Notes: generated by a model from the sequence alone, not told the origin. Positions 22,074 through 32,196 are shown, counted from the first letter of the stretch. The stretch is DNA of 37,290 nt from Candidatus Poribacteria bacterium (GCA_009845545.1 VXZK01000370.1:1-37290), one strand, 5' to 3'. Numbers and translations are program-made.

Positions 22074-24476
22074 TCAATCAAGATTTTGGGAAAGTTTTGC
22101 TCGAATGGCATCAAAATCAGGTCCCTTGGGCATGATGAACAAGCAACTTCCATCGCTACGCGCCTCCCATAGCCCACCGATTTCACGTTTTTCTTTTGCA
22201 TCGTCGGCAGACCAGAGATGGTCACCTTTGTATTCAACAATGAGGTAACGTCCGTCGGTTAAAAGACATACAAAGTCAGGATAAAACTTATCCGTTGCAG
22301 TCTGAAGCCAGAAGGAAAACTTGGGTTGGCGTTCAAGATTTCGCACCCAAAATTTAACTTCAGGCAACCTGTCAATGAACTCCGCGCATTTGAATTCTTC
22401 ACCCTCCGACTTCAAATCGCCGACGTGTTGATAGTAGTGCTTCTGAAATTGATAATGCCCTGTATAACGGGTGTTGTAGGGATAACTGTGTGGTTCAAAG
22501 GAGAAGCAGTGGTCCGGTGAAACCACAACCGGAGTTGCACATTCAGGCAGAAGGTAGCTTTCGTAGGCAGTTTTGTGCACATTTTGGCGATGGCTATCAA
22601 TTTTTGCCGCAGCGGCATCCTTCAAAGCATATTTATTGCGGATGAGGACCTCTATTGGAATGCTGCGCTCCTCAACAAGATACTTGACTAACCGTTGCAG
22701 AAAAGGCAAAGATTCACGCTGTAAAATATCAAGATGTTTAATGGTTCTATCGAGCCAGTTTGCGAGGTGTGTGGCATCCCAGTTGTCATCTGGTGCGAGA
22801 AAAGACATCTGTTGATGGAGTTGCCCCAAGAAACGCATCTCTACTCTACCCTCTTGAGAAAGCCCTATTTCGCCGCGCTCCCCCGTGTTAAATTCGGATG
22901 GAAACTCTTCTTCAGTGAGTTCAGCGTCACATTCAGACAACTGCCACGGGGTTTGTAAAAATCGTGACTCTTCAAACTCAAGGTGCCCCTGTTCCCCTTG
23001 GACCATTAATTTAGGCACCTTAAAAATTTTACCACGTTCAGCGGGCGTGGGCTCAGTATCAGACTGTGTCATACCTTCAAAGAACGGTAACTCATCTTGC
23101 TGCTCTTCCGTAGGACGAATAAGCTCGGCAGCTGCCTGCTTCTCAAATCCATTCTGGACAAGCCCATCGGTTAAGGCAGAGGCAGCTTCGTAGAAATTTT
23201 GGGATGCAACAAAAGCGTAAGCACTATTGAGCGATTCCTGTTTCTTTCGCTGTGCCTTCGGGAGACGCATGACCCTACCCAATATCTGTTCAACAGCAGT
23301 AGAAGATCTCATTTCAGCGACAGAGCAGAGGACATAGGCAAACGGGCAATCCCACCCTTCTCGCAACGCTTGAACAGTAATCACGTAACGAATTGGACAT
23401 TTTCGATCGTTGATGTCAACATCGTCAAGTCCTCTGTCTTCGCCTGTGGCACGCGCGATCTGCTCTTCTGGAATGTTGTGTTCTTCAAGTAAGCATCTCT
23501 CAACGACTTCGACAGTTAAAGTCTCTCGGTCTTTATTTTTCGGCTGCGCCTGAATGAGCATAACAGGACGGATATATTCACCTGTCTCTTCCCGTTCTTT
23601 CTCGGCATCTATTTCAAGCGCGCTGCGTTGTGTAATGGCGGCAGCGAGTAGCCGTTTCCACTCCGGTATAGTCTCTAACTGAATCGGCATTTTGATCATG
23701 TCTTCCGCTTGAAGTTCAGCGGCAGAGACGGTATAGAGAACGTTGGAAGGGTTTTGCTCCATATCGGGTGTCGCAGTGAATTCAATGATTGCAGATGGAT
23801 TGAAACGGGTAAGCGTTTCAAAAGAGAGTGGAGTCCGGGCGTTATGCGCTTCATCAACGATGATGATCGGACGTTTGACGCATAAGAGGTTTGCGAGTGA
23901 ATAGGCGGGTTTACCGTTGTCGCTCTCAAGTTCTGAAAGGATATCGTCTGAAAGGTTTGCGAAATGTCCCATTAGCGCGCCTGAATCTTCATAAACCTTG
24001 CGTCCCTCTGTATCTTCAACGCGGAACGCTTGCATCGTGGAGACAATAATCGTGATTTTTGTATTAAGAATGTGGGGTTGCAGATGAAGGGCCTCGCCAA
24101 CAGTACGGATCTCCACGTTGTGACCGGCAGATCTAAAAGCATCTCTGTACGGATGATCGGGTTCTTTAAGGGCTTTGAGTGTTTGGTCGCGTATGGCATT
24201 TGAAGGGGTCAACCAAAGCACAATCGGACTTTCAGTCTTTAAGAGTTCAGAGGCAGTAATCCCGACAGCGTGGCACGCAACGAAAGTTTTACCACCGCCC
24301 GTAGGGAGTCTAAGACAGACATAAGGCATACCGGGTAAGCCTTCAACGGCGGCATAAGGTCGCTGGGTAAGGTCGTAGAACGCGGTGTTGGCATTCTCAT
24401 ACCGCAGGCATTTTTGGTAGTATTCCGTTAATGTTTCAAGCGTACGTTCTTGGTATTCTTTGAGCGGTAGGTGCAT
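22074..24476 (-). CDS. res: Type III restriction enzyme, Res subunit (DEAD/DEAH helicase + PD-(D/E)xK-like nuclease)
   Basis: 800 aa; LPTGGGKTFVACHAVG, IIVDEAHNARTP, EQILGRVMRLPKAQRKK, C-terminal FYPDFVCLLTDGRYLIVEYKGDH. Confidence 0.9.
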   Translation of the reverse strand: MHLPLKEYQERTLETLTEYYQKCLRYENANTAFYDLTQRPYAAVEGLPGMPYVCLRLPTGGGKTFVACHAVGITASELLKTESPIVLWLTPSNAIRDQTLKALKEPDHPYRDAFRSAGHNVEIRTVGEALHLQPHILNTKITIIVSTMQAFRVEDTEGRKVYEDSGALMGHFANLSDDILSELESDNGKPAYSLANLLCVKRPIIIVDEAHNARTPLSFETLTRFNPSAIIEFTATPDMEQNPSNVLYTVSAAELQAEDMIKMPIQLETIPEWKRLLAAAITQRSALEIDAEKEREETGEYIRPVMLIQAQPKNKDRETLTVEVVERCLLEEHNIPEEQIARATGEDRGLDDVDINDRKCPIRYVITVQALREGWDCPFAYVLCSVAEMRSSTAVEQILGRVMRLPKAQRKKQESLNSAYAFVASQNFYEAASALTDGLVQNGFEKQAAAELIRPTEEQQDELPFFEGMTQSDTEPTPAERGKIFKVPKLMVQGEQGHLEFEESRFLQTPWQLSECDAELTEEEFPSEFNTGERGEIGLSQEGRVEMRFLGQLHQQMSFLAPDDNWDATHLANWLDRTIKHLDILQRESLPFLQRLVKYLVEERSIPIEVLIRNKYALKDAAAAKIDSHRQNVHKTAYESYLLPECATPVVVSPDHCFSFEPHSYPYNTRYTGHYQFQKHYYQHVGDLKSEGEEFKCAEFIDRLPEVKFWVRNLERQPKFSFWLQTATDKFYPDFVCLLTDGRYLIVEYKGDHLWSADDAKEKREIGGLWEARSDGSCLFIMPKGPDFDAIRAKLSQNLD

Positions 24477-24519
24477 TTTTTTATTTTTCGTGTTGGGGAG
24501 TTAGAATTATTTATACGTT

Positions 24520-24649
24520 GTGTTTACATTTCATCATCAAAATCGTCGGGCAGTCAGTATCTACCGGAATTTGCGTCTATAGATCAAATGTACTTTTCAG
24601 AACTATGGAAGCCTTACCGTGACTGGATCCAGAGCCAAAATGTAAACAC
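24520..24649. mobile_element. MITE-like element with 12-bp TIRs GTGTTTACATTT / AAATGTAAACAC
   Basis: Perfect inverted arms at 24520-24531 and 24638-24649 bounding 130 bp of non-coding sequence; disrupts the RelE-like ORF. Confidence 0.7.
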
Positions 24650-24732
24650 TACCTAAGAATTTGCCTCTGAATTTTGGCATCCAAACGCTGCAAATCCCGC
24701 CTGGCACTTGAGGCCAATATCAATTCATACAT
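24649..24732 (-). pseudogene. Truncated RelE/ParE-like toxin (27 aa)
   Basis: Minus-strand ATG at 24732 overlaps the 3' end of the 236-aa ORF; translates MYELILASSARRDLQRLDAKIQRQILR*, resembling RelE-type N-termini, with the stop formed at the TIR junction. Confidence 0.65.
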
Positions 24733-25430
24733 TTCAAGTCGATTCCTAATTCTTCGGCAACCTCCTCAAGTGTATACATTTTACCGCCAGACCGGATATA
24801 TTCGTCTTCGCGTTCTAATTCTTCAATGAATTCTGGTCGCAATTCCAATCCATCGTCAGGGTCGTAATCATAATTCTCAAGAAACAGTTCCATTTCCAAA
24901 TAACAGACAAAAAACTCATAGAATTCAGCACGTAGACGTTCCGCTATTTCAATAGACTTTTCCGTTCCCATTAACTTAACGAGACGTTCCCGCGATGCAA
25001 AAAGCTGCCAATTTCCGAGTGTCCGCATGAAAGTTTGGAAGTCATCAACAGATAATGCTGCCACCTTTATCTCTGGCACAGGGTCAGTATCTAAGGATAA
25101 CCCCAGTCGCCGCGCTTCACGCCCTAAAGGTGAACTTCTCCGTTGCGCTTCTACAGCAGAAACCCGATGTTTCAGATGTGCCAGGGCATCAGTAGTCTTT
25201 ATGATCTCAAGAACAGACTCCTCATGCTCTTCCAATTCTAAGGCGAGCGCATAATAGCCGTTGAAGAACTCTCGAAACTCGTCTTCAAGTGCCTCGTGCG
25301 GGCTGTTCTTTGCAAGGAGCGCGGTGAGTCGTTCGCGCGATATGAATATATCTTCATTGACAATAGACACAACCCAGTCGCTGAACTGTTGAGACGTTAT
25401 TTTTTTTCTATTTGGTGTCATTGGGTTCAC
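24720..25430 (-). CDS. 236-aa duplicated-domain protein with antitoxin-like C-terminus
   Basis: Two similar segments (IFISRERLTALLAKNS...EFREFFNGYYALALELE / LFASRERLVKLMGTEK...AEFYEFFVCYLEMELFLE); C-terminus GGKMYTLEEVAEELGIDL like RelB/Phd-type tails; followed by overlapping RelE-like ORF. Confidence 0.7.
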   Translation of the reverse strand: MNPMTPNRKKITSQQFSDWVVSIVNEDIFISRERLTALLAKNSPHEALEDEFREFFNGYYALALELEEHEESVLEIIKTTDALAHLKHRVSAVEAQRRSSPLGREARRLGLSLDTDPVPEIKVAALSVDDFQTFMRTLGNWQLFASRERLVKLMGTEKSIEIAERLRAEFYEFFVCYLEMELFLENYDYDPDDGLELRPEFIEELEREDEYIRSGGKMYTLEEVAEELGIDLKCMN

Positions 25431-25481
25431 CTGTATCTTATCTGCGATTAGATTATTTTGCGCATTTGTCAGAACATGACA

Positions 25482-26483
25482 TTAAACGGAAGCATCCGGC
25501 AAATTGCGACATTCCCTCAAGTGTGAGCTCTCCATCATATTTAGCGTAAAAAAATTTCTCCGAAACTCACCATTTGGCTTGAAGAGATCAAAGCCGTGAT
25601 CGATTCGGATAATAGCGTGCTGCGTCTCTAAATACCTTGCATGAAAGATACCATCGGGATCGTCTTTCACAGATAACCTTATCGGCCAAGGAAAGTCTTC
25701 ATTTAATGGCTCTACGAGTTCGCGGACAACTTTTTGGTAATTTTCCTGATTCCGCTCTAATTTGCTTTCTTTGGCAGAATCTGTCTCATCGTCCCGAATC
25801 TGCTCAGCAGGACACGTAAATATTTCCACGCTTCCAACACCTTGCTGAGATGCGAAAAAACCGTGTTCACGCCAGAGCGATAAAATGTATTCAATACCTT
25901 TTCGGAAATGGCTCGTATTCTCTCCTGTTCCAATGTATGCATCATAAAGCTTCAACCATTTTGAGAAACGGGCTGAACGGATGACGATCTCATCCACTTC
26001 CGATCTGGCGAGTGTATCTATTGGTCCCAATCCGTCGCAATACCTTTGACGTTCTTCCTCAAAATTGCTGTCGCGGTATTCAGATAAAGGAACAATGCCA
26101 TGCCTATGTTCTGGGTCAAATCTTAGTTTTTCAAAGTTTTCGTTCCCTACAATCAAACCATCCGGTTCGGTATCTCTTTTCAGATGACACGTTAAGTCCA
26201 AAAGATCCCTTGATGATATATTACTTGGCAAAACAGAAGGCACAGTGACTCGTTTTGATTTCTCTTTTAGGAGGTCGGTGAGTAAAGTTCTCAATCGATT
26301 GCCCTTAATTGGAAGCGATGCAGCCTTTTTGAAGAGTTCCTCTTGTAATTTTCTTTCTGAATCAACAATCAGCACTCCATTTCTCCATATCCCTTGCAAG
26401 AAATCCTCCGCTTGAATCCTATAAAGATCATTAAAATCCTCGGCATCAAATGCAGAAGGATCAAGCACTGCACTCATTAGCAT
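25482..26483 (-). CDS. Uncharacterised 333-aa protein, possible PLD-like C-terminal domain; partner of the upstream AAA ATPase
   Basis: Starts 21 nt after the ATPase stop with SD GAAGGAG; C-terminal ...DEIVIRSARFSKWLKLYDAYIG...IFHARYLETQHAIIRIDHGFDLFKPNGEFRRNFFTL (HxR-type motif). Function is inference. Confidence 0.7.
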   Translation of the reverse strand: MLMSAVLDPSAFDAEDFNDLYRIQAEDFLQGIWRNGVLIVDSERKLQEELFKKAASLPIKGNRLRTLLTDLLKEKSKRVTVPSVLPSNISSRDLLDLTCHLKRDTEPDGLIVGNENFEKLRFDPEHRHGIVPLSEYRDSNFEEERQRYCDGLGPIDTLARSEVDEIVIRSARFSKWLKLYDAYIGTGENTSHFRKGIEYILSLWREHGFFASQQGVGSVEIFTCPAEQIRDDETDSAKESKLERNQENYQKVVRELVEPLNEDFPWPIRLSVKDDPDGIFHARYLETQHAIIRIDHGFDLFKPNGEFRRNFFTLNMMESSHLRECRNLPDASV

Positions 26484-26503
26484 TAACTTAACTCCTTCTG
26501 TTA

Positions 26504-28045
26504 TTACAGTTCCCGAAGGCGTTCCAAGAAAAATCCGCCGGGCCAGTCATCAATAAAATCGCCTGCCTCATCAAGATGTAAACGTTCTGCTTTCGCTCCC
26601 TCAGACCGACGACTGACATAGATAACCGATATGTCCTCTGGTTCGATTTGCTTTTGGCGGACTAAACGTTGCAAACGTAAAATCAGATGTTCACTATGGG
26701 TCTCGATGAGGAATTGATTTGGGTTCTCTTTTTTAATTGCTGCGGCTAAAAGGTCCCCGAGATCCGCTTGTAACCTTGGATGCACGTGAACTTCAGGCTG
26801 TTCAATGGAAATAATTTGCCCCTCTGAAACCAAACTCTGGACAACAAAAGGGAGGAGTTGACTAATGCCAAAACCTACATCTGGAAGTGCTACACTTACA
26901 GGGTCCTTTCTACGCGTATCTATGAATCTCACCTCAAATAGATCACCCGAATTAGCCTCCATTGATTTTACCGTGAGTTTATGGCCTGTGTTGAGTTTTT
27001 TCAGCCATTCATTGGTTTCTTCAACTAGCTCAGGACGACGGAGGAGTAGATCTGGAAGTAAATTCCCTTGGTATCCGACATCCTGAGGGCTAGTTCCTCT
27101 GAAGATGTACCATCTTTCCGGAGGTCTTTGAAAAGGTCCCATAGGAAAAAGAGCCTCTAAAGTTCGGCCCAATGTACTGGCCGCCAACATAACTAATTGA
27201 GCGACATCAAATATAATAAACTCATCAGACTGACGATGAAAGAAAAATCGGAATTCATCTATCCAAGCACTTCTTTTACCAGTCATAATTTCAACTGGAA
27301 AAAAACCTTGTATATCTAAAACTGTGTTCATCTCTTCATTGCGCCGTCTGGAAACATAGGTTTCCAAATCAAAATTTGATAATAAAAATTTCATATCATC
27401 TTTGAAAGAGTTGGCTCCTTCCTGAATTCCCTCACTGTGCTGTTTCAAGTCTACCAATTTTTCCTCAAGTAGGTTACGTATCTTTTCCTTATTGTCTATA
27501 TACCATTCAAACTCCGGAATCCAATACTCCATTGCTTCTGCTAACCAAACACATTTTACTGCAGCCAATTTTGAAACCGAAATACTTCGTGAATTACTGA
27601 GAAACCTTCTCCTCTCGAATTCTTTAGGTTTTTCAGTTGATCCCAATGGTTGAAACTTGACGAGACACTTGGATGATTTACCATCATAAATGTCAATTTG
27701 GTCTAAAAGAACTTCTTCCTCAAGAGAGGGTCTTTTGAAACTAAATTCAATCCCTAATTTCCGAGCCAAATCGGTGTCCACCCGAATTGAGAGCGTCCGT
27801 TCCAAGTCGTGGTCGAAAAGCATCTCCTGAAAACTGCCGAGATCTACAATGCCATTTTCAGTTCGAGGGAGTAAGAGAGCATCTGACTCTCGGCTCTCCA
27901 TCGTCTGTTTGAGGAGATAAAGTACTTGCAGAATTGTGCTCTTTCCCGCGCTGTTTTCGCCAAAAATCAGTGTTATTGGGGCAAACGGAATGCGTGCACG
28001 TTTTCCAAAGGCTTTGAAATTTTCTAATTCTAATGCATGAAGCAT
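26504..28045 (-). CDS. AAA family ATPase (OLD/AAA_21-like with DUF3696-like C-terminus)
   Basis: Start MLHALELENFKAFGKRARIPF at 28045 with SD AGGAG; GENSAGKSTILQVLYLLKQ Walker A; DVGFGISQLLPFVVQSL signature; IISIEQPEVHVHPRLQADLGDLL Walker B; FLIETHSEHLILRLQR H-loop; GGFFLERLREL C-terminus. Confidence 0.9.
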   Translation of the reverse strand: MLHALELENFKAFGKRARIPFAPITLIFGENSAGKSTILQVLYLLKQTMESRESDALLLPRTENGIVDLGSFQEMLFDHDLERTLSIRVDTDLARKLGIEFSFKRPSLEEEVLLDQIDIYDGKSSKCLVKFQPLGSTEKPKEFERRRFLSNSRSISVSKLAAVKCVWLAEAMEYWIPEFEWYIDNKEKIRNLLEEKLVDLKQHSEGIQEGANSFKDDMKFLLSNFDLETYVSRRRNEEMNTVLDIQGFFPVEIMTGKRSAWIDEFRFFFHRQSDEFIIFDVAQLVMLAASTLGRTLEALFPMGPFQRPPERWYIFRGTSPQDVGYQGNLLPDLLLRRPELVEETNEWLKKLNTGHKLTVKSMEANSGDLFEVRFIDTRRKDPVSVALPDVGFGISQLLPFVVQSLVSEGQIISIEQPEVHVHPRLQADLGDLLAAAIKKENPNQFLIETHSEHLILRLQRLVRQKQIEPEDISVIYVSRRSEGAKAERLHLDEAGDFIDDWPGGFFLERLREL

Positions 28046-28101
28046 AAGATTGCTCCTAATCCTGAAAATTCTATAATCTTGTAAATCCGTGTTCAGAGAA
28101 T

Positions 28102-28130
28102 AGGATACGACATCCAACCCAATTTGTCAA
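28102..28130 (-). promoter_or_regulatory. Candidate sigma70 promoter TTGACA-N17-TATCCT for the ATPase cassette
   Basis: Minus-strand TTGACA (28125-28130), 17-nt spacer, TATCCT (28102-28107), about 57 nt upstream of the ATPase ATG. Confidence 0.6.
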
Positions 28131-28192
28131 CCTGCAAAGTCATAAAAACATCGGGGATACAATTCCATCCGACAAGTTGCCTACTGCTGCTC

Positions 28193-29815
28193 CTATACAA
28201 GGTTGTAAGGCATTTGACGAAAGGTAATGCCCAACTGTTTTAAGGTAGCTTCGGTGAGTTGGGTGCCACCACAATGGATGACCCTGCTACCATTATGAGG
28301 TGGTAAGTGATCTATGAGATCCTCGGTAAGGATGTCTTCACTGTTAAGCAGATAGACACCGACACCGTCCGCGCTTCCTAAAAAGGCACGTTTGTATCTT
28401 TCAGCAGCATTACAAGCACCATACGATGGGCTATCTCCCTCCACAAGGGATACTACAGTGTTTACCGCCATCGGGGTTCCCGTTTCCTTGAAAAAGAGTA
28501 ACTGCGCCATTTCACTAAACGGAATTTCCTGTTTTTCCAAGAAAGTTTCGCCTACGTGATAATAAGAAAATGTGCCTTCAGTGCCGAATACATGTTGTAG
28601 TCTACCCTTCTGCTCATAGGTATAGCCTTCACTGACACGTTCAAGACGGACAGCCGTAATTTCACGGGCTATTTTCGGCTCTACCTCAACCAAAATGAAA
28701 CGCCGACTACCGCCATCCTCACGGTTTTGTTCCATAACCGCGTGTGCCGTTGTTCCACTGCCAGCGAAGGAGTCAAGGATAATGGCATCTTTACTGCGTA
28801 GCAGTTCCAGCAAAAACTTAATAAATTTTACAGGCTTGGGTTGGGGGAAAACACCGCCTTCACCAAATATATTACGAAGTTCAGTTGTGCCTTCTTTGTT
28901 GAAACCTACGATTTCTGGTGAGAGGAATACGTCTGGTGGTTGTCCTTCTTGTACCTCAGAGAGGTAGCGTTTTGCCCGCGGTTCGTTCCCAGAGAAATCA
29001 ATGCGACCCTCGCGTTCCATCCTACGTAATGTATCTTGCGAATAACTTGGATAACGTCCTGAAGGCGGGGACCATTCAACGCCATTTTCAAAGGTGAATG
29101 TGTATGGTTCGTAATAGTTTCGTGCACTGAGTGGATCAAGTTTATATTTACCTCTACCATCGTTATCATCATGAGGATATTTCTTTGATTTATCAGTAAT
29201 GTAACGAATATATCGACTTTTGTCTTCACCAAACCATGATTTTTCTTTGGCATAAACCAAGGTGTAGTCAGCATTGTGATTAAAATCTTTACTGGAGTTA
29301 CGCACGGTGTGCATTGCTCTTCTTGTGAGAATTGCAAAAAAGTTCTTTTCTCCGAAAATCTCATCCATTAGCATTCGTAAATGATGCACTTCATTATCAT
29401 CAATTGAGATGAAAATCACACCATCCTCTCGAAGAAACTGATGAATGAGGCAGAGGCGAGGGTACATCATACAGAGCCATTTATCATGTCGGGAGAGATC
29501 TTCAGAGAGCTTGCCAACAGTTTTTCCGAGCCATTTCCGGATGGTTGGGTTGTTGACATTATCGTTGTAAATCCAATTTTCGTTGCCTGTATTATAAGGC
29601 GGATCAATGTAGATGCATTTGACCTTACCAGCATAATAAGGTAGGAGTGCTTTGAGGGCAAGAAGGTTATCGCCTTCGATGAGGAGATTACCGGTGCCGA
29701 TCGGTTCGTTCTCGACACCTAAAGAGCGATCAGGGTCGTGCGTGAGCGTGTGTATCGGTACCTCATCGTGGTGGTTGATGACGGCTTCTTTTCCGATCCA
29801 GTTTAGTGTTGGCAT
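28193..29815 (-). CDS. mod: Type III restriction-modification system DNA methyltransferase (Mod)
   Basis: 540 aa; NLLALKALLPYYAGKVKCIYIDPPYNTGNENWIYND (DPPY motif), DGVIFISIDDNEVHHLRMLMDEIFG, DSFAGSGTTAHAVM: beta-class N6-adenine MTase order. Confidence 0.93.
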   Translation of the reverse strand: MPTLNWIGKEAVINHHDEVPIHTLTHDPDRSLGVENEPIGTGNLLIEGDNLLALKALLPYYAGKVKCIYIDPPYNTGNENWIYNDNVNNPTIRKWLGKTVGKLSEDLSRHDKWLCMMYPRLCLIHQFLREDGVIFISIDDNEVHHLRMLMDEIFGEKNFFAILTRRAMHTVRNSSKDFNHNADYTLVYAKEKSWFGEDKSRYIRYITDKSKKYPHDDNDGRGKYKLDPLSARNYYEPYTFTFENGVEWSPPSGRYPSYSQDTLRRMEREGRIDFSGNEPRAKRYLSEVQEGQPPDVFLSPEIVGFNKEGTTELRNIFGEGGVFPQPKPVKFIKFLLELLRSKDAIILDSFAGSGTTAHAVMEQNREDGGSRRFILVEVEPKIAREITAVRLERVSEGYTYEQKGRLQHVFGTEGTFSYYHVGETFLEKQEIPFSEMAQLLFFKETGTPMAVNTVVSLVEGDSPSYGACNAAERYKRAFLGSADGVGVYLLNSEDILTEDLIDHLPPHNGSRVIHCGGTQLTEATLKQLGITFRQMPYNLV

Positions 29816-29865: not shown

Positions 29866-30090
29866 ATTAGTGCTTCCGCTTTGAGAGTTGATCTTCGCTG
29901 AGGTTATGTCGGAGAACCCCACACTTCCGCTTGTGAACTTTCATTGTCAAGTGCTTCAAGAACAACTGATGCTTTAAACTCAGCAATGAATCTTTTTCGC
30001 TTGGCCATCGGATACTCCTGTCACTGAGATTGTTATTATGTCACAATCTTGGTTGAGACGATGGCCCAAATTTCCGATGGCAGTACATAA
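29866..30090 (-). mobile_element. IS3-family-like left-end/orfA remnant
   Basis: Minus-strand ATG at 30008: MAKRKRFIAEFKASVVLEALDNESSQAEVWGSPT*, then after a frameshift RHNLSEDQLSKRKH*; matches the typical IS3-type OrfA N-terminus. Upstream TGTACTGCCATCGGAAATTTGGG may be the IS end. Boundaries approximate. Confidence 0.7.
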
Positions 30091-30172: not shown

Positions 30173-30649
30173 TCATAACACTGTTGTATGCCCAGGAGGG
30201 TTTGTGGGGAGCCAGATTCCCAGTTTTCTGTCAGGGATAAAATAAATGCCATCATGTTTGATAACTGGTACAACATCCATGTCCGCTTTGTTGGTTTCTA
30301 TGCCTACTGACCGGTCTTGGCGGCGAATTTCTGTATATTTTTTTGCCAATGTGTTATAGAGAAGGTCTATAACCTCTTCCGCTGCATCCTCACGAGTGTG
30401 ATTTGTCTCAACAATGATATCAACATCAGGACGTTCTGTCTCATCTTCCCTTTTTTGTGGTCGGATAGCCGTATCGCGCTTGTAAGACCCTGATAAAAAG
30501 GTGTCTTCATGGTATTCTTTGAAATCCTCTTCGTTTTTAAGAAAATCTCGTAGTGTGGTATGGGCAGAAGCGGCATCGTTTTTAGTTGTGGTGCTCGGTT
30601 CAATGTCACTTAGGAATTCAGTGAACCGAGCTTGTGGGATCGTTCGCAT
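30173..30649 (-). pseudogene. Truncated cGAS/DncV-like nucleotidyltransferase (CD-NTase, SMODS-type) fragment
   Basis: 158 aa; [14 protein letters not shown] (GS motif), RPDVDIIVE (DxD), ADMDVVPVI (third Asp), [19 protein letters not shown]; ends where such proteins normally continue; another frame continues WNSPNAYVPTVLIKT*. SD AAAGGAG precedes ATG. Confidence 0.75.
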
Positions 30650-30813: not shown

Positions 30814-30842
30814 ATTATACGATATTTTTTATCGTTTGTCAA
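30814..30842 (-). promoter_or_regulatory. Full-consensus sigma70 promoter TTGACA-N17-TATAAT with palindromic spacer
   Basis: Minus strand: TTGACA (30837-30842), 17-nt spacer, TATAAT (30814-30819); ACGATA-N5-TATCGT palindrome at 30819-30835. Confidence 0.7.
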
Positions 30843-31397: not shown

Positions 31398-32141
31398 TTA
31401 TTGACTTTTGCCCCTTGAAGTGTTTTCTGTTGAAGATTTTTGTCGTGTGGCATCGCAGTTGATTTCTTTTTTTTGTTTACGCTTCTCCGGTGGCACATAA
31501 TACGAAACAACCTTCATACCTTTCCGTCGGCATTCCTCTTGAACTTTTCGCAAATGCGCGGAGAGCTCTTCAACGGAGTTGAATTGGGCGTTGAATTCTT
31601 CTTTCATTCGATAGCATTCTTCAAGGATGGGGTCTGTATAGTTTTCAAAATCTTCTTCTTTCATCTGAAATTCCCCTATTAAATCTGTCGGTGTGCAGAT
31701 AGTTGTTGGTTTGAAACCTGCTTCTCTACAGACTTGATTGATATACTCACGTTTATTGGCATTCACAATATGCTTATGATTCCACGACGCGAGATATTCA
31801 ACCTGATGTACTGTAGCAATAGCGATATGTTCTGCATCAGACCGGAAATTTTGTGGTACTGCACCGGCATCAAGCAATTTCTGTGTGAGTATATCAGCTT
31901 CCGATAATATTTCCAATACCGTTAGATGCGATAATACTTCAAGCCGCCGCTGCACTGCCTCTGGATTACCCTGACTTACCTCGGCGAGAACTATTGGTGA
32001 AATCACAAATGCGAATCTATCCGTATAGTTCTCCCACAACTGCCGAGTTATCTGTTGCCAAGACGCTAACGTTGGATCGTTACTTGGTCTACCTACCAGA
32101 TAACTGATAACGGTGGTTTCAAGGTAGACCCTTGGTTTCAT
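31398..32141 (-). CDS. PIN-domain toxin fused to its downstream partner-like domain
   Basis: Natural start MKPRVYLETTVISYL (32141); ISPIVLAEVSQG, RSDAEHIAIATVHQVEYLASWN PIN motifs; C-terminal MKEEDFENYTDPILEECYRMKEEFNAQFNSVEELSAHLRKVQEECRRKGMKVVSYY resembles a separate small TA partner. ORF extends to 32159. Confidence 0.8.
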   Translation of the reverse strand: MKPRVYLETTVISYLVGRPSNDPTLASWQQITRQLWENYTDRFAFVISPIVLAEVSQGNPEAVQRRLEVLSHLTVLEILSEADILTQKLLDAGAVPQNFRSDAEHIAIATVHQVEYLASWNHKHIVNANKREYINQVCREAGFKPTTICTPTDLIGEFQMKEEDFENYTDPILEECYRMKEEFNAQFNSVEELSAHLRKVQEECRRKGMKVVSYYVPPEKRKQKKEINCDATRQKSSTENTSRGKSQ

Positions 32142-32196
32142 TTTTCTATAGTGTATCATGAAATATTGTCGGTTTCAAGGAAATAATTGATACAGT

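Follow-up and report, generated by a model that had tools for sequence, protein, structure and literature searches.

A two-gene module encoding an OLD-type ATPase and a 333-residue partner (P333) with a PLD-like C-terminal domain is found between the mod and res genes of an intact-looking type III restriction-modification (R-M) system of Candidatus Poribacteria. The locus (positions 22074-29815) is part of the window analysed here, which is itself a complete contig, 37,290 bases long, from a genome of 5.57 Mb. Comparisons were made across the phylum (85 genomes), and the named relatives within it are metagenome-assembled genomes of Candidatus Poribacteria. Recurrence of related pairs in restriction operons of distant bacteria suggests an uncatalogued back-up anti-phage device, and we put at about even the chance that the module is a back-up effector comparable to PARIS or PrrC.

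Five genes, mod, ATPase, P333, a 236-aa gene (P236) and res, occur in that order, intact and co-directional on the minus strand. This is the arrangement described in an earlier note on this DNA. The open reading frame (ORF) coordinates given there are retained, except that the ATPase probably has another start, and a ParE remnant at 24732-24649 had been overlooked. The mod gene (28193-29815) encodes a type III N6-adenine DNA methyltransferase of 540 aa, matched by PF01555 and PADLOC MTase_III (2.8e-152), in which the β-type methylase motifs DPPY and FAGSGTT are intact. The restriction subunit encoded by res (22074-24476, 800 aa) is matched by PF04851 and PADLOC REase_III (7.9e-152) and retains its SF2 DEAH helicase and PD-(D/E)xK nuclease motifs intact, with GGGKT, DEAH and PD-x-EYK all present. 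The two genes are 3.7 kb apart, so the adjacency that is usual, if not strictly defining, for type III R-M is absent. The same five-gene order occurs in G082, a 6.66-Mb single-contig genome, which rules out an assembly error as the source of the arrangement. Purifying selection acts on the genes of the locus; dN/dS is well below 1 for every one of them, with values of 0.24 for the ATPase and 0.22 for P333 between the window and L032.

Homologues of P333 were identified in 33 of the 85 genomes, nearly always directly 3′ of the ATPase gene and usually about 20 bases from it. Among 19 full-length res orthologues, 16 belong to loci in which the pair separates mod from res, the G070 locus being divided between two contigs. 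In one further locus the pair is directly upstream of mod, and in the last two, those of G032 and G034, 51 bp separate mod from res. As a control, gaps were estimated from coordinates for 22 further mod/res pairs of the phylum; at 124-1849 bp (median 166) they are too small to leave room for the 2.6 kb of the pair. In G035 (L045) the same ATPase-P333 pair is placed inside a different type III system at another chromosomal site, with a mod product of 1100 aa (PADLOC MTase_III, 5.5e-165) and a res product of 1004 aa (REase_III, 2.9e-50). In G029 a P333 remnant lies between relatives of this mod and res; this second modB/resB locus (L062:7522-16796) has two near-identical ORFs and one of 384 aa between the genes as well.

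Beyond the phylum the survey covered plasmids, phages and E. coli. Type I operons on plasmids of Methylocella (L106), Azotobacter (L108) and Vibrio (L112) encode a related ATPase and a PLD-like protein of approximately 300 aa directly after hsdS; the E. coli and phage collections yielded no relatives. A Pseudoalteromonas partner (L111) was left out because it has no recognisable HAR motif. The Methylocella plasmid carries a dense defence cluster, hsdR-hsdM-hsdS-ATPase-PLD-SIR2-DUF87. As judged from predicted gene content, placement in R-M operons recurs across three kinds of R-M operon. These include type I loci, and for that reason the analogy drawn earlier with ATPase insertions in such loci holds. 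Homologues of the pair recur in R-M operons, and a lack of defence neighbours was not seen. The rlo ORFs of Campylobacter type I loci, which are accessory ATPase genes within R-M operons, are likened to the present genes by description only.

By its motifs and family matches the ATPase (26504-28045, 513 aa) is OLD/DUF3696-like, as had been proposed. It matches AAA_15 and AAA_21 in Pfam, its C-terminus resembles DUF3696 with a sub-threshold match, and the OLD/ABC motif set is complete, comprising Walker A GENSAGKS, the signature DVGFGISQLLPF, Walker B EQPEVHVHP and the His switch ETHSEH (conserved, 31 sequences). The best PADLOC profiles are the HEC-03, PDC-M55 and Nsn candidates, with E-values from 3.6e-59 to 5.6e-54; the AriA profile gives 2.5e-29, and HEC-03B, NsnB and PDC-M55A score better. 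The earlier note had allowed that the pair might already be a named system. In PADLOC-DB of 2023, the catalogue used for this comparison, no model covers P333, those of HEC-03, PDC-M55 and Nsn included.

Translation of the ATPase more likely starts at ATG 28045, after the conserved ATTAGGAG, than at TTG 28117. A putative sigma-70 promoter (TTGACA-17-TATCCT) is positioned at 28102-28130 on the minus strand. Sites like TTGACA-17-TATACT, with at least 10 of 12 consensus bases, precede the ATPase start by some 75-120 bases in 62% of 32 loci; in base-shuffled controls the figure is 3.6%, although sequence relatedness inflates the contrast. The promoter-like site is kept even in loci that lack mod and res (L046, L050 and L051). 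The same scan of the 32 loci gave no sites of that strength upstream of P333 or res. The ATPase gene therefore appears to possess a conserved promoter of its own.

P333 (25482-26483, minus strand) comprises an unassigned N-terminal domain, residues ~1-160, and a PLD-like/MIT_C C-terminal domain, residues ~161-333. Searches of Pfam, PADLOC and NCBIfam assign no significant family to P333 or P236, PHROGs gives no meaningful match, and PDB sequence searches with both profiles returned chance-level matches only. Across the P333 family the C-terminal domain shows a weak match to the PLD-like MIT_C family PF16565; 11 of 19 members are detected when E-values up to 5 are allowed (the best being 0.0016), and the window protein scores 13.5 bits where the cut-off is 25. 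Alignment of this domain with four type I/plasmid partners using hhalign gave a probability of 95 and E of 2.3e-8; with three partners the score was 40.5, compared to 21.5 or less in 60 column shuffles. His281 and Arg283 are invariant in the family, an HxR where HxK is expected. The C-terminal domain is thus predicted to belong to the PLD-like, nuclease-superfamily fold group, in keeping with the possible nuclease suggested previously, and P333 may have nuclease activity. No similarity was detected between the N-terminal domain and the corresponding part of the type I partners, and no search supported a PIN-like reading based on the invariant Asp8, Asp41 and Asp108.

How might such a pair contribute to defence? 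The OLD-type ATPase would hold its PLD-like partner inactive, with the hypervariable central region (residues ~85-335) acting as a sensor. On meeting a phage product that overcomes the first line of defence, such as an anti-restriction protein, or some other phage-derived trigger, the ATPase would release or activate the partner. Once freed, the partner would cleave or bind nucleic acid and infection would be stopped. We infer the defence role, the sensing, the activation and the nuclease activity from sequence.

There are precedents for such a scheme. PARIS combines an ATPase (AriA) with a nuclease (AriB) and is triggered by the anti-restriction protein Ocr (PMC9122126). The module described here shares with PARIS a two-gene layout, in which a small effector comes after an OLD-type ATPase of the AAA_15/AAA_21 kind, and, on the proposed reading, a place as second line behind R-M. 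It differs in that the effector is PLD-like, Pfam and PADLOC detecting no DUF4435/TOPRIM domain of AriB type in P333, and in the better scores of the window ATPase with HEC-03B, NsnB and PDC-M55A than with AriA. For want of a TOPRIM partner the module is not classed as PARIS, but it may function in a similar way. PrrC is kept silent by a type I R-M enzyme to which it is linked, and a phage anti-restriction factor activates it (PMC2610378). PrrC/EcoprrI is likewise an ATP-dependent effector encoded within an R-M operon; however, PrrC is a single-chain tRNA nuclease of a type I system, whereas here there are two proteins, a type III system and a PLD-like partner. A single chain that joins an ABC ATPase to an anticodon nuclease is not seen, as Pfam matched no nuclease domain in the ATPase. 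In BREX and RM-like systems OLD-ABC ATPase-nuclease pairs serve as back-up effectors (PMC12839542), and the resemblance lies in an OLD-type ATPase plus nuclease as an extra layer of a modification-based system. The partners reported are TOPRIM, HNH, PD-(D/E)XK and PIN, with no mention of a PLD partner in the portion consulted. The HEC-03, PDC-M55 and Nsn candidates of PADLOC have an ATPase alike but leave the P333 partner unmatched. Septu and Gabija are also ABC-type ATPase effector systems but have HNH or TOPRIM/helicase partners, neither of which was detected among the window neighbours in Pfam, PADLOC or NCBIfam. Our literature search found no paper on an ATPase-PLD pair in R-M loci, with the caveat that a description may exist in a review of ABC-ATPase conflict systems (Krishnan 2020).

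Several observations weigh against a back-up nuclease tied to restriction. A catalytic PLD carries HxK plus a following Asp. The HxK(x4)D pattern is not present in P333, where Gln occupies the Asp position; HxR is also found in the four distant partners, with the Asp present in Methylocella. Since the motif is altered in this way, the C-terminal domain may serve for binding and not for cleavage. The AlphaFold model of P333 is confident in the C-terminal domain only, the N-terminal half being poorly modelled, and a Foldseek comparison of the P333 and P236 models with the PDB gave no significant match. In five related loci (L056, L057, L059, L060 and L061) the PLD-like domain is absent altogether, the N-terminal half of P333 being fused in frame to P236. 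The distant independent pairs number only four, all of them plasmid-borne and drawn from a small plasmid sample, and that of Deinococcus (L107) has no R-M genes nearby. Within the phylum, the ATPase-P333 pair is present without mod and res in eight hotspot loci. Taken with the Deinococcus plasmid, these loci indicate that R-M is not required for maintaining the pair. Such loci, and the promoter of the ATPase gene, lend no support to a dependence of the pair on the R-M system.

The hotspot itself provides an alternative explanation. In the genus of the window it has glnS-gltX-degT on one side and a sulfatase-ubiA pair on the other, and in a sister genus it precedes a pyridoxal-dependent decarboxylase gene. 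The ATPase-P333 pair could be an independent defence module with a trigger of its own that merely shares the gltX/degT site with R-M, CBASS and toxin-antitoxin genes, its position between mod and res being historical. The many states of the site are consistent with this, since it may be empty or hold a toxin-antitoxin pair, mod-res, the ATPase pair or all together, as is the promoter that persists where mod and res are absent. Genera are intermixed in the ATPase tree, whilst the res tree mostly keeps them apart, again as an independent module would predict. What this explanation does not account for is that a second type III backbone, different and at another site, also carries the pair between its mod and res genes, or that three of four plasmid relatives adjoin hsdS. 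In addition, apart from the toxin-antitoxin pair, the hotspot has only one other gene inserted between mod and res, a Fic-like ORF seen in a single locus. We regard an independent module as possible but doubtful.

The central region of the ATPase bears on this matter and on the relationship with Mod. Mean identity is 45% in the ATPase centre and 84% at the ends, a pattern like that of the target-recognition domain (TRD) of Mod (40% against 83%). Between the window and L032 the mod products are 93% and the P333 proteins 94% identical, yet identity in the ATPase centre drops to 25-58% in most 40-residue blocks. The centre undergoes exchange. Diversity of the ATPase centre and of the Mod TRD is uncorrelated (Mantel r -0.19, p 0.93; 17 loci), and eight loci that share one Mod TRD have eight different ATPase centres. 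The lack of correlation argues against the ATPase reading Mod specificity and fits the sensing of something external; it would also be expected of the independent module considered above. It is difficult to reconcile with a further possibility, that the ATPase and P333 are auxiliary subunits which associate with Mod or Res and modify how the enzyme cuts or translocates. Co-directional genes would suit such subunits, as would a res gene with no recognisable promoter, which may for that reason be transcribed from the ATPase promoter. The pair is nevertheless found without R-M, and G032 and G034 have mod and res without the pair. Auxiliary subunits therefore seem decidedly unlikely.

The earlier note had included P236 in a three-gene cassette. 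P236 (24720-25430, minus strand) is an antitoxin-like protein with an internal duplication visible in sequence, modelled as a two-repeat helical structure with no PDB match, and as many as seven members of its family occur in one genome. In relatives an intact ParE-family toxin gene follows the 236-aa gene with a short overlap (PF05016, 3.4e-13 in L053). In the window the toxin gene is cut after 27 codons; the remnant (24649-24732, minus strand) overlaps the end of the 236-aa gene and an imperfect 23-nt inverted-repeat element (24509-24660) marks the truncation. The element is single copy in this genome and was therefore not taken for a mobile family. On these features P236 makes up the antitoxin-like side of a ParE toxin-antitoxin pair with many paralogues, its toxin broken in the window, and stands outside the ATPase-P333 pair.

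ParE is intact in all five fused loci but in only five of 24 with the PLD-like domain (Fisher p 0.002), or five of 12 when the latter are restricted to those keeping the 236-aa gene (p 0.04). Because the five fusion proteins are interrelated, we treat this association as a lead rather than a test. The fusion and the intact toxin genes of several relatives could point to an addiction or regulatory cassette, with P236-ParE and the pair stabilizing the R-M locus instead of fighting phage. At least seven loci, however, retain the 236-aa gene with the toxin lost or truncated, and the sensor-like diversification of the ATPase centre is not what an addiction module would be expected to produce. We consider this the most improbable of the explanations. 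A broader form of the back-up effector reading is unlikely, though less so than auxiliary subunits. It envisages a general R-M-guarding module with interchangeable effectors that plugs into type I and type III systems alike. The exchangeable centre of the ATPase would read anti-restriction factors, and the N-terminus of P333 would be an adaptor coupled to the PLD-like domain or, in the fused variant, to antitoxin-ParE.

Upstream of mod in the window are a truncated CBASS cyclase (SMODS, 158 aa; 30173-30649), the remains of another defence system at the same hotspot, and then an apparent IS3-type transposase fragment (~29900-30010). A perfect 12/12 sigma-70 consensus site is located upstream of the cyclase remnant (30814-30842, minus strand). 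At the hotspot border a 253-aa gene (31398-32159) reads as PIN-like, with no Pfam match, and is broken in several relatives (e.g. L038, L057 and L058). The locus with the Fic-like ORF (L048:4375-12986) has two mod genes in tandem, the ORF lying between the 333-aa and 236-aa genes. Elsewhere in the genome of the window, a different AAA_15/AAA_21 ATPase lies after a further type III mod/res pair (L105:781-2052, contig G000:C239).

If the back-up effector reading is true, a PLD-like effector joins the back-up effectors that guard restriction systems, the 2023 PADLOC catalogue listing none of this type, and such effectors extend to type III loci. The eight loci that agree in Mod specificity but differ in their ATPase centres then represent a natural experiment, in which the sensor would be mappable by swapping a single region.

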